Of a DNA stretch of 64,000 bases, positions 15,471 through 24,754 are shown one piece after another. The stretch is from Desulfobulbus oligotrophicus (GTDB lineage: Bacteria > Desulfobacterota > Desulfobulbia > Desulfobulbales > Desulfobulbaceae), in contig NZ_CP054140.1 in the NCBI RefSeq assembly GCF_016446285.1, positions 2,151,501 through 2,215,500 on the forward strand, given 5' to 3'. The notes beneath the pieces were generated by a model that made no database searches, was not told the origin of the DNA, and saw nothing but the letters and a program-made list of their open reading frames with translations. Numbering within the stretch: position 1 is the stretch's first letter; each line of letters opens with the position of its first letter. Position numbers and translations under genes: made by a program.

Positions 15471-15498
15471 AAAAAAAGAGGGGGCATTCAACCCCCTC
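15471..15498 (-). terminator. intrinsic terminator of the selenoprotein gene
   Basis: On the minus strand a 7-bp stem GAGGGGG/CCCCCTC with a 7-nt loop is followed by seven T. It starts 26 bp after the stop codon of the selenocysteine-containing thioredoxin gene. Confidence 0.85.
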
Positions 15499-15523: not shown

Positions 15524-16093
15524 CTACAGCAGTGCATATGGCTGGGCTCGTTTGAGCCACTCACTGTCCGGATAATTGTCTTTGAGGAATTGATAGGCTT
15601 CTTTGAGAGGAGCAGGATTGTTCGTGGCCTTATATCTGCTGACTCCCAGATGAAAGGCAGCCTCAGGCGCGGCTGAACTCTGAGGATGATCCTTGATCAC
15701 TTTCTCCAGCAGAGTGATAGCAGATTCAAAGTTCTGCAGGTCAAAAGCGGTCTTGGCCTGACCCACTATCAGAAAGGGGATAAACTCTTCAGGCGGCAGA
15801 AAGCCTACACCGCGATGGTGCTCTTTGCCGGTCTCGTCCAATATTACTATGGTAGGCGTCCAGGTAATATTGAAGTCAACGGCTTCTGGTTTGGCGTTAA
15901 AAGGTAGTTGTACGGGAATGAAGTTTTGGGTGGTATAATCGCTGACTGCGGCGTTAGGGTACGTAACTGCACCCATTTGCTGACAGCCTATTCATCCGGG
16001 GTTGAAAAAATCCAGCAGCACATATTTTTTCTCGGCCGCAGCCTGCTGCAATCCGGTCTGCAGATCATTTTCCCACTTGATTTCATGACTCAT
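15524..16093 (-). CDS. thioredoxin-fold selenoprotein (Sec at codon 34) with TPR-like tail
   Basis: 189 residues if the in-frame TGA at 15992-15994 is read as selenocysteine. The ATG at 16093 has GGAGG 6 nt upstream, and the frame before the TGA reads MSHEIKWENDLQTGLQQAAA then KKYVLLDFFNPG; after it comes IGCQQMGAVTYPN. The active site is therefore U34-I-G-C37 in place of CxxC, at the exact place expected in a thioredoxin fold (…DFF.P.C.GC). The cis-Pro motif TPTIVI follows. Residues from about 110 on look tetratricopeptide-like (QNFESAITLLEKVIKDHP). No good start exists after the TGA. Expected role: thiol-disulfide exchange. A strong terminator follows. Confidence 0.85.
15960..15991 (-). promoter_or_regulatory. 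candidate SECIS hairpin after the Sec codon
   Basis: Directly 3' of the TGA, nt 4-9 (GGCTGT) can pair with nt 22-27 (GCAGTT, with G-U pairs), leaving a loop that holds GGG at nt 18-20. An alternative 3-bp stem GCA/TGC puts the same G run in the apical loop. Distance and loop G fit the bacterial SECIS rule; the stem is weak. Confidence 0.5.
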
Positions 16094-16806
16094 GGCTTAC
16101 CTCCTGGGTGATAAAAAGTTGTTTTTTTGCGACGATAGTATAGCGAGAACGGGCTTGAACGTCAAAAAAAACTGTGAACACAGCATATTGTAGTGTGGTC
16201 GGGCTAAGATGACACAATAGGTGAGTTCGAGTTCAGGACAGCCACGCATTTGGTGGAAGCGACACGTGTTCATTGATGCCGCGAAAGGAGGAAATGCTGG
16301 AGATCGGTGTTCAAGACCATCTCCAACATGGTTAGTTCATTCGTAAGCTTCACAAGGATATTGAAGCCATTGTGGCGAAGATTGAAGAGAGCAAACCATG
16401 ACAGAACGTAGATTTTATCTGCGCCATCCTGCTCGGCTAAGTCCGGTCATTCCGCATGCAGTCGTGGAGTCCATGTCTGGTACATCAAGGATGCTGGATT
16501 CTGCGACTACGACCGCTGCGCGTCCTTTGCGCAGAATGACTATTGCAGGGTGATAGGGTGATGTCTGAGCCCGATTGATGTCATGCCGCGTGGAGTCGTT
16601 GGAGTCCATGTCTGGTGTATTAAGGATGCTGGATTCTGCGACTACGGCTGCTGTGCGTCCTTCGCGCAGAATGACTGTTGCAGGATGACAGGGTGATGTC
16701 TGAGCCCGATTGATGTCATTCCGCGCGATAGTCGCGGAATCCATTGAGCAGGATCTGGATCCTGCGACTTTGCGCAGGATGACAAAAAACAAACTGTCTT
16801 CTACTC
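16094..16806. other. repeat-filled spacer with gene debris
   Basis: No intact gene. At 16292-16403 a frame preceded by AAAGGAGG reads MLEIGVQDHLQHG, stop, then FIRKLHKDIEAIVAKIEESKP; it looks like a broken gene of unknown family. The right half is filled by two tandem copies of the dispersed REP-like unit. Confidence 0.5.
16440..16790. repeat. REP-like repeat, two tandem units plus half unit
   Basis: About 125-bp units built from two imperfect palindromes: one with GTCATTCCGCGCGATAGTCG...GGAATCC, the other with GGATTCTGCGACTACG...GCGCAGAATGAC. Copies begin near 16465 and 16595, and a further half unit ends near 16785. Reverse-complement copies are at 22815-22945 and 23245-23405. Frames across it are spurious. 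Confidence 0.8.
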
Positions 16807-17250
16807 TTACAGCCCGGTCTGCTGCCGCAGCCGGGCCAGTTTCTGCATGAGTTCCGCAGGCAGATCATAGAGGTTTTCGATACTGGTCTGGTTGATTATA
16901 TCTTTTGTAAACCCGTCTTTCAGTACTTTTCCCTTATCCATCAGCAGGGTGCGACCTTCCAGAAACAGGGCATGCTCTGGATGATGGGTCGTCAGCAGGA
17001 AGGAACGCCCCTCATCGGCAAGTTCGCGAATGGTTTGCAGAAGATGAAACTGCCGGCCATAATCCAGGCTGTTGACCGGCTCATCCATGATGAAGAAGCG
17101 CGCGCCTTGCACCAGGGCTCGAGCAAGAAGCACCAGCTGCTGCTGTCCGCCGCTGAGCTGGGAATAGGGCCTTTGGGCATGCTCCTGGATCCGCATTTTT
17201 TCCATGGCCTGCTCGGCAATAAGCCGGTCTTCTTCCCTGACCTGGTACCA
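16807..17250 (-). pseudogene. ABC transporter ATPase, C-terminal half (FecE/BtuD type)
   Basis: Reads GRTAFSPWYQVREEDRLIAEQ, signature LSGGQQQ, Walker B FFIMDEPVNSLD, and H-loop LLTTHHPEHALF. This is the C-terminal two thirds of a siderophore/cobalamin-type import ATPase. Walker A and the Q-loop part are absent: upstream the frame runs straight into a permease at VLVG/GR, where both families have a similar short sequence. The half ATPase cannot bind ATP normally. In transcription order the locus is DUF364 gene, IS5 copy, TonB receptor piece, permease piece, ATPase piece. Confidence 0.8.
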
Positions 17251-17780
17251 GGGACTGAAAGCGGTGCGTCCCACCAGCACCACACTAAGTGCGCTGATCA
17301 GGGTAGCCACTATGATCAGACGCAGGCGCACAGCGCGCACATCCACCCCTAATGATGCGGCCTCCTCATCCCCCATGCTCAAGGGATTGATCAGCTTGCC
17401 GTGCAGGCAGATAAAAAAGATGCCGGCCGGCATGGGCAGACTGATCAGATAAAGAGAAGATGTTTCAACCCGGGAAAAAGTGCCCATCAGCCAGTAGACA
17501 AGTTCCGGTAACTGACGGTTGGGGTCAGCCGGAAATTTGAGCAGGGAAGTCAGGGCGGTGAAAAACGAGGTGCTGACCATGCCGCCCAGAATAAGGACCA
17601 GCAGGGAAGACTGGCGTATAAAAGAGGCCAGGAAGCAGGAGAGTCCCACTGCCAGGCAGGCAAAGAGAAAGGCCAGGATTTGCGTGGCCAGCCAGGAGGA
17701 GAGCAGCACAATTCCAAGGCCCGCCCCAAAGGAGGCACCGGCCAGGACGCCAAGGATGCCCGGAGAGACCAGGGGGCAGG
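17250..17780 (-). pseudogene. FecCD/BtuC-type permease fragment fused in frame to the ATPase
   Basis: Residues PLVSPGILGVLAGASFGAGLG, then FLASFIRQSSLLVLILGGM, YWLMGTFSRV and GDEEAASLGVDVRAVRLRLI are diagnostic of the FecCD family. Only the central helices remain. The N-terminal three helices are missing, and so is everything after LISALSVVLVG (normally ...G.IGFVGLVVPHIAR). It continues without a stop into the ATPase remnant, giving one open frame 16807-17835. The predicted start region (MCRKTSS...) is out-of-frame receptor sequence. Confidence 0.8.
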
Positions 17781-17784
17781 GACA

Positions 17785-18000
17785 TGGCTTCCCAGAGGCT
17801 TGCGGCATTGATGTGCTGGATGTCTTCCTGCACAATGCGCCGGGTGGTATCCATCTCCGCTGTTACTTCCATGGCAGGAAGCTCATACGCTGAAGAAGAT
17901 GCAAGATCACCTTCCTGGGCAAGAACCTGGGCACACAGGATCGCGGGGGAAATAATCGCCAGGACCGAACCACAAACAAGATGACGTTGCAGCGTACTGT
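17785..18000 (-). pseudogene. TonB-dependent receptor, N-terminal fragment
   Basis: In a frame different from the permease the minus strand reads a signal-like segment (LVCGSVLAIISPAILCAQVLAQ), then LPAMEVTAEMDTTRRIVQED then IQHINAASLWEAM. The last part is the usual start of a TonB-receptor plug domain (Ton-box region, then ...IT.EDI...NA.SL.EAL). The remaining plug and the whole barrel are gone. Its upstream side is cut by the IS5 copy at 18005. It was probably the outer-membrane part of a siderophore, heme or cobalamin uptake operon. Confidence 0.65.
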
Positions 18001-18008
18001 GTCTCTAG

Positions 18009-19339
18009 CAGGCTGTTGAAAAACAGGAAAACATGAGACAAGGGTTGTTTATTTGCCCTTCGATAGCTCTTTGACAGTGAGCACTTGACCGTTTTTCGTC
18101 ATGGTGTGTTGCCATTTTTTGTTTTCTGAGGCGCTTCAAGCCGCTCTGATGAGGATTTCCCCTCCTACCCGGAGGCAACTACCCCCAGATTACGCATTCG
18201 GACCATGTTGTAGGCTGCCGCTGAGAGCGTGAAGAGCCAGTCAATCTTTTCCTCACCCTTGTACCTGGCTTTGCGCAACCAGGCGACGGTCTTCATCCAG
18301 CCAAATATCTCTTCCACCCGTTTGCGTTTCTTCCGACTCACGGCATAACCTGCATGACGGGTGGTCCGGCCATCGATGGCGGAGCCTTTGACTTTCTGTG
18401 CTACATGTGGAGTAACGGTCAGGCTGCGCAGGTCATCGACGAACTCCTTGCAGTCATACCCTTTGTCCGCGCCGATGGTGACTCGATGTGTGCCCGGAAT
18501 ATCCGAAGCCATGGAAAGGGCGGCCTCGCGCTCCGCCGTCCCGGTTGCCTGGGTCAGGCGGGTATCGACGACCAAACCGTTCCGATTTTCCATCAGCACA
18601 TGCCCCATGAAGCAGAGCCTGGCCTCCTTGCCTTTTCCTTTTCTGAACAGCCGGGATTCTGGATCGGTGACCGATGCGTGCGTGTCATTGCGACGCTTTT
18701 TCCCGTGGAAATCCACTGCCGGATTGCGGTTGCCGCCGGTAGAGACCGGAGGCTCCTCATCTTTGGGCCGAAAGCTCTTCAGCGATGCCCACGTTTCGAT
18801 CAGTGTGCCGTCAACGGTGAAATGGTCGTCAGACAAGAGTCCGGCTGCCTCGGCTTGGGAACAGATGGATCGCAAGAACATCACCGCAAGATCACTGTGC
18901 AGAATGCGCTCCCTGTTTTTGGAATAGACGGAGTGATCCCAAATTGCTTCATCCATGGACAGGCCGACAAACCAGCGAAAAAGAAGATTGTAATCAAGCT
19001 GTTCCACCAACATCCGCTCGCTCCGGATCGAATAAAGGATTTGCAGCAGCAGGGAGCGAAGCAGTTGCTCGGGCGGAATCGATGGTCGTCCTGTTCGTGA
19101 GTAGAGTTCCCGAAACACGGGAGAGAGTTCCTTCAGCGCTTTATCAGCCATGATTCGGATAGGGCGCAGGGGATGCGTTTGGGGAACTCGGGATTCGGGG
19201 GAGAGATAGCTGAACAATTTCTGTTGCTGAATATCAGGTCCGCGCATATTTCCACCTGTTTGTCAGTTATTCCAAATGGTTGGATAATACACGGTATTGT
19301 TTTACATGTCCCGTTGTTTATGAGTTTTTCAACAGCCTG
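18009..19339 (-). mobile_element. IS5-type insertion sequence, copy 1 (1331 bp)
   Basis: Ends are 16-bp perfect inverted repeats, CAGGCTGTTGAAAAAC at the left and its complement at the right. CTAG flanks both sides (18005-18008, 19340-19343), which fits the 4-bp YTAR target duplication of the IS5 family. One transposase gene fills it. It interrupts the DUF364-TonB-FecCD-ABC locus. Copy 2 is at 23424-24754 in the same orientation. Confidence 0.95.
18165..19247 (-). CDS. IS5-family transposase, copy 1
   Basis: 360-residue DDE transposase. The N-terminal DUF772-type domain (GRPSIPPEQLLRSLLLQILY) is followed by the catalytic segments: HFTVDGTLIE (first Asp), GADKGYD (second Asp) and RKRVEEIFGWMKT (Glu), the spacing and spelling usual for IS5/IS1182-like enzymes. 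The protein is intact and identical to that of copy 2, so the element may be active or has moved recently. Confidence 0.95.
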   Translation of the reverse strand: MRGPDIQQQKLFSYLSPESRVPQTHPLRPIRIMADKALKELSPVFRELYSRTGRPSIPPEQLLRSLLLQILYSIRSERMLVEQLDYNLLFRWFVGLSMDEAIWDHSVYSKNRERILHSDLAVMFLRSICSQAEAAGLLSDDHFTVDGTLIETWASLKSFRPKDEEPPVSTGGNRNPAVDFHGKKRRNDTHASVTDPESRLFRKGKGKEARLCFMGHVLMENRNGLVVDTRLTQATGTAEREAALSMASDIPGTHRVTIGADKGYDCKEFVDDLRSLTVTPHVAQKVKGSAIDGRTTRHAGYAVSRKKRKRVEEIFGWMKTVAWLRKARYKGEEKIDWLFTLSAAAYNMVRMRNLGVVASG

Positions 19340-22814: not shown

Positions 22815-22945
22815 ACCATCGTCATTTCGCGCGATAGTCGCGCGGAATGACATCAATTTGGCTCATACATTCCCTCCGTCACCAGCAACCGTCATTCTGC
22901 GCGAAGGACGCACAGCGACCGTAGTCGCAGAATCCATACAATCCA
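22815..22945. repeat. REP-like repeat unit
   Basis: Same two-palindrome unit as at 16440-16790, in opposite orientation: GCGCGATAGTCGCGCGGAAT, then GTCATTCTGCGCGAAGGACG...GTCGCAGAATCC. Confidence 0.8.
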
Positions 22946-23244: not shown

Positions 23245-23405
23245 GGATTCCGCGACTGTCGCGCGGAATGACATCAATTTGGCTCATACATCACCTCCGT
23301 CACCTACAACAGTCATTCTGCGCGAAGGACGCGCAGCGGCCGGAGTCGCAGAATCCAGCATCCTTAATGCGCCAAACATGGACTCCGTAACTGCACGTGG
23401 AATGA
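23245..23405. repeat. REP-like repeat unit next to IS5 copy 2
   Basis: GATTCCGCGACTGTCGCGCG then GTCATTCTGCGCGAAGGACG...CAGAATCCAGCATCCTTAAT. It ends 15 bp before the CTAG target of IS5 copy 2. Confidence 0.8.
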
Positions 23406-23423: not shown

Positions 23424-24754
23424 CAGGCTGTTGAAAAACAGGAAAACATGAGACAAGGGTTGTTTATTTGCCCTTCGATAGCTCTTTGACAGTGAGCACT
23501 TGACCGTTTTTCGTCATGGTGTGTTGCCATTTTTTGTTTTCTGAGGCGCTTCAAGCCGCTCTGATGAGGATTTCCCCTCCTACCCGGAGGCAACTACCCC
23601 CAGATTACGCATTCGGACCATGTTGTAGGCTGCCGCTGAGAGCGTGAAGAGCCAGTCAATCTTTTCCTCACCCTTGTACCTGGCTTTGCGCAACCAGGCG
23701 ACGGTCTTCATCCAGCCAAATATCTCTTCCACCCGTTTGCGTTTCTTCCGACTCACGGCATAACCTGCATGACGGGTGGTCCGGCCATCGATGGCGGAGC
23801 CTTTGACTTTCTGTGCTACATGTGGAGTAACGGTCAGGCTGCGCAGGTCATCGACGAACTCCTTGCAGTCATACCCTTTGTCCGCGCCGATGGTGACTCG
23901 ATGTGTGCCCGGAATATCCGAAGCCATGGAAAGGGCGGCCTCGCGCTCCGCCGTCCCGGTTGCCTGGGTCAGGCGGGTATCGACGACCAAACCGTTCCGA
24001 TTTTCCATCAGCACATGCCCCATGAAGCAGAGCCTGGCCTCCTTGCCTTTTCCTTTTCTGAACAGCCGGGATTCTGGATCGGTGACCGATGCGTGCGTGT
24101 CATTGCGACGCTTTTTCCCGTGGAAATCCACTGCCGGATTGCGGTTGCCGCCGGTAGAGACCGGAGGCTCCTCATCTTTGGGCCGAAAGCTCTTCAGCGA
24201 TGCCCACGTTTCGATCAGTGTGCCGTCAACGGTGAAATGGTCGTCAGACAAGAGTCCGGCTGCCTCGGCTTGGGAACAGATGGATCGCAAGAACATCACC
24301 GCAAGATCACTGTGCAGAATGCGCTCCCTGTTTTTGGAATAGACGGAGTGATCCCAAATTGCTTCATCCATGGACAGGCCGACAAACCAGCGAAAAAGAA
24401 GATTGTAATCAAGCTGTTCCACCAACATCCGCTCGCTCCGGATCGAATAAAGGATTTGCAGCAGCAGGGAGCGAAGCAGTTGCTCGGGCGGAATCGATGG
24501 TCGTCCTGTTCGTGAGTAGAGTTCCCGAAACACGGGAGAGAGTTCCTTCAGCGCTTTATCAGCCATGATTCGGATAGGGCGCAGGGGATGCGTTTGGGGA
24601 ACTCGGGATTCGGGGGAGAGATAGCTGAACAATTTCTGTTGCTGAATATCAGGTCCGCGCATATTTCCACCTGTTTGTCAGTTATTCCAAATGGTTGGAT
24701 AATACACGGTATCTTTTTGTATGTCCCGTTATTTATGAGTTTTTCAACAGCCTG
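23424..24754 (-). mobile_element. IS5-type insertion sequence, copy 2 (1331 bp)
   Basis: Same length, termini and orientation as copy 1. CTAG occurs at 23420-23423 and 24755-24758. The two copies differ by only a few bases, all seen near the right end (about 24710-24735 here), outside the transposase gene. This points to recent duplication. Confidence 0.95.
23580..24662 (-). CDS. IS5-family transposase, copy 2
   Basis: 360 residues, identical in translation to the copy at 18165-19247, with the same DDE segments (HFTVDGTLIE; GADKGYD; RKRVEEIFGWMKT). Intact. Confidence 0.95.
   Translation of the reverse strand: MRGPDIQQQKLFSYLSPESRVPQTHPLRPIRIMADKALKELSPVFRELYSRTGRPSIPPEQLLRSLLLQILYSIRSERMLVEQLDYNLLFRWFVGLSMDEAIWDHSVYSKNRERILHSDLAVMFLRSICSQAEAAGLLSDDHFTVDGTLIETWASLKSFRPKDEEPPVSTGGNRNPAVDFHGKKRRNDTHASVTDPESRLFRKGKGKEARLCFMGHVLMENRNGLVVDTRLTQATGTAEREAALSMASDIPGTHRVTIGADKGYDCKEFVDDLRSLTVTPHVAQKVKGSAIDGRTTRHAGYAVSRKKRKRVEEIFGWMKTVAWLRKARYKGEEKIDWLFTLSAAAYNMVRMRNLGVVASG

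Follow-up and report, generated by a model that had tools for sequence, protein, structure and literature searches.

Gene, Reading Frame, and Local Signals

The window, by which we mean the whole analyzed stretch of 64,000 nucleotides from the Desulfobulbus oligotrophicus genome, carries on its minus strand a gene with an in-frame TGA codon. The features at the locus, numbered from the first letter of the window, are as follows.

15524..16093, minus strand: predicted selenoprotein gene, 189 amino acids, thioredoxin fold followed by C-terminal TPR-type helices, TAG stop (translation, Pfam, AlphaFold2 model)
15992..15994, minus strand: TGA codon predicted to be read as selenocysteine 34 in a U-I-G-C motif (translation, alignment of homologues)
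15983..15985, minus strand: TGT codon of Cys-37, the presumed resolving residue (translation; Cys in 72/72 TGA-form loci)
15957..15974, minus strand: bSECIS-type hairpin, arms 15974-15969 and 15962-15957, loop 15968-15963 with G second in the loop (folding, conservation)
16100..16105, minus strand: Shine-Dalgarno-like AGGAGG, 6 nt 5' of the ATG (sequence inspection)
16137..16165, minus strand: sigma-70-like promoter TTGACG-17-TATACT (consensus match only)
15478..15498, minus strand: intrinsic-terminator-like hairpin and T run, 3' of the stop codon (consensus match only)

The frame from 16093 to 15524 runs from ATG to TAG over 189 codons and is interrupted solely by the TGA at codon 34, placing the predicted selenocysteine (Sec) in the context NPGUIGCQQM. 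This is the single thioredoxin-like frame with a U-I-G-C motif proposed in the first-pass annotation, and the ribosome-binding site that it placed upstream is found as AGGAGG at 16105–16100, 6 nt 5' of the ATG. The mechanical list of open reading frames gives just 15524–15976, a 150-amino acid product beginning at Met-40 from which Sec-34 and Cys-37 are both lost, as had been foreseen for a start at this position. The Met-40 codon starts at 15976, and its last base is the first base of the SECIS-type stem. The window protein scores below the cut-off of every NCBIfam model, so that automatic annotation may well start at Met-40 and lose the active site. For the promoter and terminator assignments, two promoter-type matches were observed between 15200 and 16400 compared with 1.3 expected in shuffles, and four terminator-type matches compared with 1.5.

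The pN/pS ratio for codons 1–33 is 0.25 and 0.28 relative to the close relatives L017 and L042, respectively, with values of 0.18 and 0.10 against the same relatives for codons 35–189. The low ratio for codons 1–33 indicates constraint at the protein level 5' of the TGA. L042, a copy with 92% identity, is located on a contig of 5 kb from a MAG that bears the label Desulfovibrionales, and an 85% copy is labelled Desulfobulbus; the placement of L042 reflects either transfer or mis-binning.

Homologues and the Exchange of TGA and Cys

Matches to the window protein were found in 19 of 55 genomes of relatives at 1e-3, in 70 of 257 genomes of the class at 1e-15, and in 85 of 395 genomes of the phylum sample at 1e-15, where at most eight candidates were scored per genome. 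A TGA-form match is present in 75 of these 85 genomes; in the class and phylum searches its location at residue 34 is established for the loci examined, and elsewhere the count refers to one TGA in frame. The Sec form therefore outnumbers the non-Sec form by 75 genomes to 9 in the 395-genome sample, counting matches that cover the site and with one fragment dropped.

Eighty-seven loci were examined, comprising 72 TGA forms, 13 non-TGA loci covering the site, and two fragments that do not cover it. The TGA forms include the window's own locus and one duplicate, leaving 71 that are distinct around the TGA. In all 72 the matched stretch contains a single TGA, which aligns to residue 34, and residue 37 is Cys. 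Among the 13 non-TGA loci, 11 encode Cys at residue 34 by TGC or TGT, five of them as CxxC and six as CxxS. Both halves of the exchange anticipated in the first-pass annotation, Cys in homologues and TGA in related genomes at position 34, are thus present. The remaining two loci, L099 and L104 of family f72, have neither Cys nor Sec at residue 34 and a Ser at the Cys-37 site, the residue at the site in L104 being unsure owing to an adjacent gap; these are apparently redox-dead members, found beside CxxS forms of the same family.

Two genomes of one genus illustrate the exchange directly, with G605 having the Sec form together with selA and G533 having the Cys form, the proteins being identical at 129 of 186 residues. 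The pair constitutes a natural test of what Sec contributes to a thioredoxin–TPR protein. In a quick tree, from which L042, L043, L108, and L109 were omitted and for which branch support is SH-aLRT only, the Sec label needs four changes, two of which are forced by well-supported branches. A plasmid search with the protein gave no match at 1e-15.

A Conserved Hairpin Downstream of the TGA Codon

Beyond the scope of the first-pass annotation, a bSECIS-type hairpin lies 23 nt after the UGA with a 6-bp stem and the 6-nt loop AGUUAC, modelled under constraints taken from section 5 of PMC13188914. Calculated folding energies are -16.2 kcal/mol over the 47 nt that follow the UGA and -9.6 kcal/mol over the 22 nt around the hairpin. 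Measured by energy alone the window's fold is modest (z −1.33, with 18 of 200 shuffles as good), and for this reason conservation and synonymous resampling were used instead.

Pairing is kept in 414 of 426 stem cells across the 71 distinct sequences, compared with 279 for the best slid version of the stem. None of 2000 column shuffles reached 414, with the shuffles averaging 401 because the columns are so conserved, which places this control near saturation. Codon choice in the stem is informative in two places. The third base of codon 44 (Thr, Ala, or Ser) is G in 71/71 sequences, compared with a background of 18–24% G for such codons in the remainder of the genes. Where codon 41 is Asp GAT, the paired Tyr codon is TAT in 54/54 sequences, and where it is Gly GGT the Tyr codon is TAC in 7/8, restoring the pair; five of the 71 sequences combine GAC with TAC and have two of the six pairs broken. 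In synonymous resampling 55 of 71 sequences fall in the lowest 5%, with 7 of 200 for the window, and the exact 6-bp hairpin is part of the minimum free energy structure of the 47 nt after the UGA in 62 of 71 sequences and absent from it in nine. The same columns of the 13 non-TGA loci form 6, 1, 4, 2, 1, 4, 2, 2, 2, 2, 1, 2, and 3 of the six pairs, that is three or fewer in 10 of the 13, a contrast with the TGA forms that is partly phylogenetic since the non-TGA sequences are more distant. An Rfam search of the window at gathering thresholds returned two tRNAs and nothing else. The hairpin, the pN/pS ratios on both sides of the TGA, and the invariance of the TGA column bear out the earlier argument that a chance nonsense mutation hardly accounts for the codon.

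Selenocysteine Machinery

The D. oligotrophicus genome is a single contig of 3,102,012 bases with a completeness of 99.99%. All the components for which the first-pass annotation had advised a search were found: selA (619.2 bits, cut-off 268), selB (347.7 bits, cut-off 242), selD (361.5 bits, cut-off 125), and a tRNA-Sec with the anticodon tca (71.5 bits, gathering threshold 47). The selD gene of this genome (G000:C1:1078205-1079146, L012) has an in-frame TGA as well, and its product is probably a selenoprotein too.

In the phylum sample selA is over its cut-off in 355 of 395 genomes. The proportion is 71/75 for TGA-form genomes compared with 5/9 for non-TGA genomes covering the site (Fisher p = 0.0037), the genome G461 having been dropped from the latter as its match does not cover the site; the counts were upheld when the four TGA-form exceptions and all nine non-TGA genomes were searched again for selA. 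Compared with all other genomes of the sample, TGA-form genomes show no selA enrichment (p = 0.14), Sec use being common in the phylum. Three of the four exceptions belong to a single genus and are 62–79% complete; the fourth, G403, gives a partial match to selA (96.5 bits, positions 329–453). Of these four genomes, all but G297 have selB over its cut-off. On the non-TGA side, selA gives no match at 1e-3 in G446, G528, G533, and G619, and selB does not exceed its cut-off in any of them.

G141, which is a single contig, gives no match to selA at 1e-3 although its selB scores 385 bits, illustrating that a missing selA match is not proof that Sec decoding is absent. There is likewise no selA match at 1e-3 in G261, G297, and G332 (family f20), where selB is over the cut-off in G261 (two matches) and G332. 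The archaeal-type Sec synthase (PF05889, SepSecS) was found in none of six genomes searched, these being the four TGA-form genomes without selA over the cut-off, G141, and the D. oligotrophicus genome (G000). The absence of selA in G141, G261, G297, and G332 may be due to gaps in the data, to masking, or to an unusual Sec synthase.

Sequence comparison establishes the coding frame, the conserved exchange of TGA and Cys among homologues, the presence of the decoding machinery, and the hairpin. Together these features argue for a genuine selenoprotein, in which the TGA is very probably read as Sec at codon 34.

Domain Architecture and Structural Model

Pfam assigns Thioredoxin_2 (PF13098) to residues 18–107 (49.2 bits, cut-off 27) and TPR_6 (PF13174) to the C-terminal region (37.1 bits, cut-off 26.3) with the best stretch at 112–139, the TPR region being an addition to the thioredoxin-like protein described in the first-pass annotation. 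The AlphaFold2 model, built from 47 aligned sequences with Cys substituted for Sec, has a mean pLDDT of 97.5 and a pTM of 0.92 and shows a thioredoxin fold to approximately residue 100 followed by six helices, two of which comprise 5 residues. Eight columns are invariant in the 47 sequences (Trp-7, residue 34, Gly-36, Thr-79-Pro-80, Gly-97, Leu-163, and Trp-179); this alignment excludes L099 and L104, and the invariance of column 34 refers to the chosen rows only. The N terminus, judged by eye, has no signal-like character.

The top two Foldseek matches are the YbbN/CnoX entries 3qdn and 3qou with TMq values of 0.43–0.45 and an rmsd of 11–12, so that what is common with YbbN/CnoX is mainly the order of the domains. 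For the thioredoxin part, VIA-align gives 3f9u (Z 16.9) and the DsbD γ domain (1uc7, Z 14.8 over 110 residues). By sequence profile the thioredoxin domain resembles DsbD-γ and PDI and the tail resembles the TPRs of CpoB, YbgF, and BamD, with YbbN absent from the best 60 of 97 profile matches and also from the best 50 VIA-align rows listed.

Comparison with Known Families

A predicted selenoprotein family named "Thiol:disulfide interchange protein," with PF13098, a UxxC motif, and WP_011366075.1 as an example, has been described (PMC9312934, PMC13188914). The family is also recorded from two Geobacter species and from Syntrophus aciditrophicus (PMC1794560), and it is entered as "Trx-like 2," cd02953, in PMC2398784. 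The present family fits this published description in having PF13098 over its cut-off, a UxxC motif (here UIGC), and an anaerobic deltaproteobacterial setting, a likeness at the level of the published descriptions. Neither "TPR" nor "tetratricopeptide" appears in the main text of PMC9312934 or PMC13188914. Among the open-licence articles searched we found no related paper on a UIGC selenoprotein, no Sec thioredoxin-tetratricopeptide protein of sulfate reducers, and no Desulfobulb proteomics of one. The gene represents an already known kind of protein, as the Sec form of an established redox protein type, and is a solid case with wide conservation.

The window protein resembles CnoX/YbbN in combining an N-terminal thioredoxin fold with C-terminal TPRs. 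It differs in its length (189 amino acids compared with 280-285 for YbbN chains), in its shorter TPR tail, in having Sec in place of the S/CxxC motif, and in the poor whole-length superposition. The TPR part of Escherichia coli CnoX is formed by two five-helix subdomains (PMC8129009), whereas six helices follow residue 100 in the model of the window protein. Membership of the CnoX group is not claimed. The C-terminal (γ) domain of DsbD has the thioredoxin fold in common with the window protein and the DsbD model matches with an E-value of 2.1e-9, a match that falls short of the model cut-off; Pfam identifies no further DsbD domain in the window protein, which adds the TPR tail. TsoB (NF045694) and VPGUxxT (NF041383) have a related thioredoxin-like domain and Sec, but the window protein scores only 40.5 bits against a cut-off of 805 and 33.3 bits against a cut-off of 275, respectively, and judged by their names these families have a different architecture and motif.

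Proposed Activity and Genomic Context

The product is probably a cytosolic thiol/selenol oxidoreductase. SelB would deliver Sec-tRNA to the UGA at codon 34, helped by the hairpin just downstream, yielding the 189-residue protein. Sec-34 would then attack disulfides or other oxidized sulfur species on substrates, with Cys-37 resolving and a cellular reductase recycling the enzyme, and the TPR-type tail of approximately 80 residues may bind a partner or substrate.

Genomic context was assessed by clustering the neighbours of 86 loci, with flanks covering 47–3006 nt (median 1500) and neighbours named by Pfam on one representative each. There is no universal operon and no cluster exceeds eight loci, so that context gives hints only, and an operon-based assignment of function was rejected on this ground. 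The largest neighbour cluster has mixed positions and contains proteins looking like response regulators. A desulfoferrodoxin gene is co-directional and 42-79 nt downstream in four loci, a rubrerythrin-family gene is co-directional and 181-1077 nt downstream in four, and a Pyr_redox flavoprotein gene is co-directional and 103-153 nt upstream in three. These neighbours are consistent with a more specific function for the same gene, in which the protein serves as the reductant for a particular enzyme of oxidant defence (peroxide or superoxide) or of sulfur metabolism and the TPR tail docks the partner. This possibility is put forward tentatively, as 77 of the 86 loci, including that of the window, have none of the three genes in the flank.

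A second specific function for the same gene, which we consider rather unlikely, is that of a Sec-containing chaperedoxin similar to CnoX/YbbN, in which the TPR tail would hold unfolded or oxidized clients and the Sec site would reduce or protect their cysteines. The domain order and the two best Foldseek matches point in this direction, and a few relatives are adjoined by co-directional genes for Hsp20 (33-128 nt downstream in three of 86 loci) or FKBP (16 and 179 nt upstream in two); a CnoX acting as a CxxC reductase has been described in Caulobacter (PMC6282202, PMC8129009). Against this stand the poor superposition over the whole length of YbbN, a tail of some 80 residues compared with the two subdomains in the E. 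coli protein, the sequence likeness to DsbD-γ/PDI and to the TPRs of other proteins, and the lack of a universal neighbour. Still less likely is that the phylum harbors a family of Sec thioredoxin–TPR chaperedoxins of an origin independent of CnoX, having Sec as the rule and Cys as the exception; if true, such a family would connect selenium with the control of protein quality during oxidant stress. A pseudogene or sequencing error, with the TGA acting as a genuine stop and just the 150-amino acid fragment from Met 15976 being produced, would agree with the mechanical ORF caller yielding exactly that fragment, but is rejected as extremely improbable by the TGA in 72/72 loci, codon selection 5' of the TGA, conservation of the hairpin, and the full Sec machinery.

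Other Features Flanking the Gene

Further features are apparent on the 5' side of the thioredoxin–TPR gene in the window. An ORF at 16807-17835 (minus strand) encodes 342 amino acids, with a FecCD-type permease stretch (amino acids 21-193) running directly into the C-terminal half of an ABC ATPase (amino acids 202-255), which suggests a deletion that fused parts of an iron-type ABC transporter. Two ORFs at 18165-19247 and 23580-24662 (both minus strand) have the same 360-amino acid translation and an identical 300-nt stretch past their 3' ends; from our own reading we take these to be transposase-like. Pairs of direct repeats of 107-126 nt, which are 91% alike, are located at 16465-16725, 22830-22936, and 23251-23357 and have frames with similar peptide strings, probably representing a dispersed non-coding repeat.
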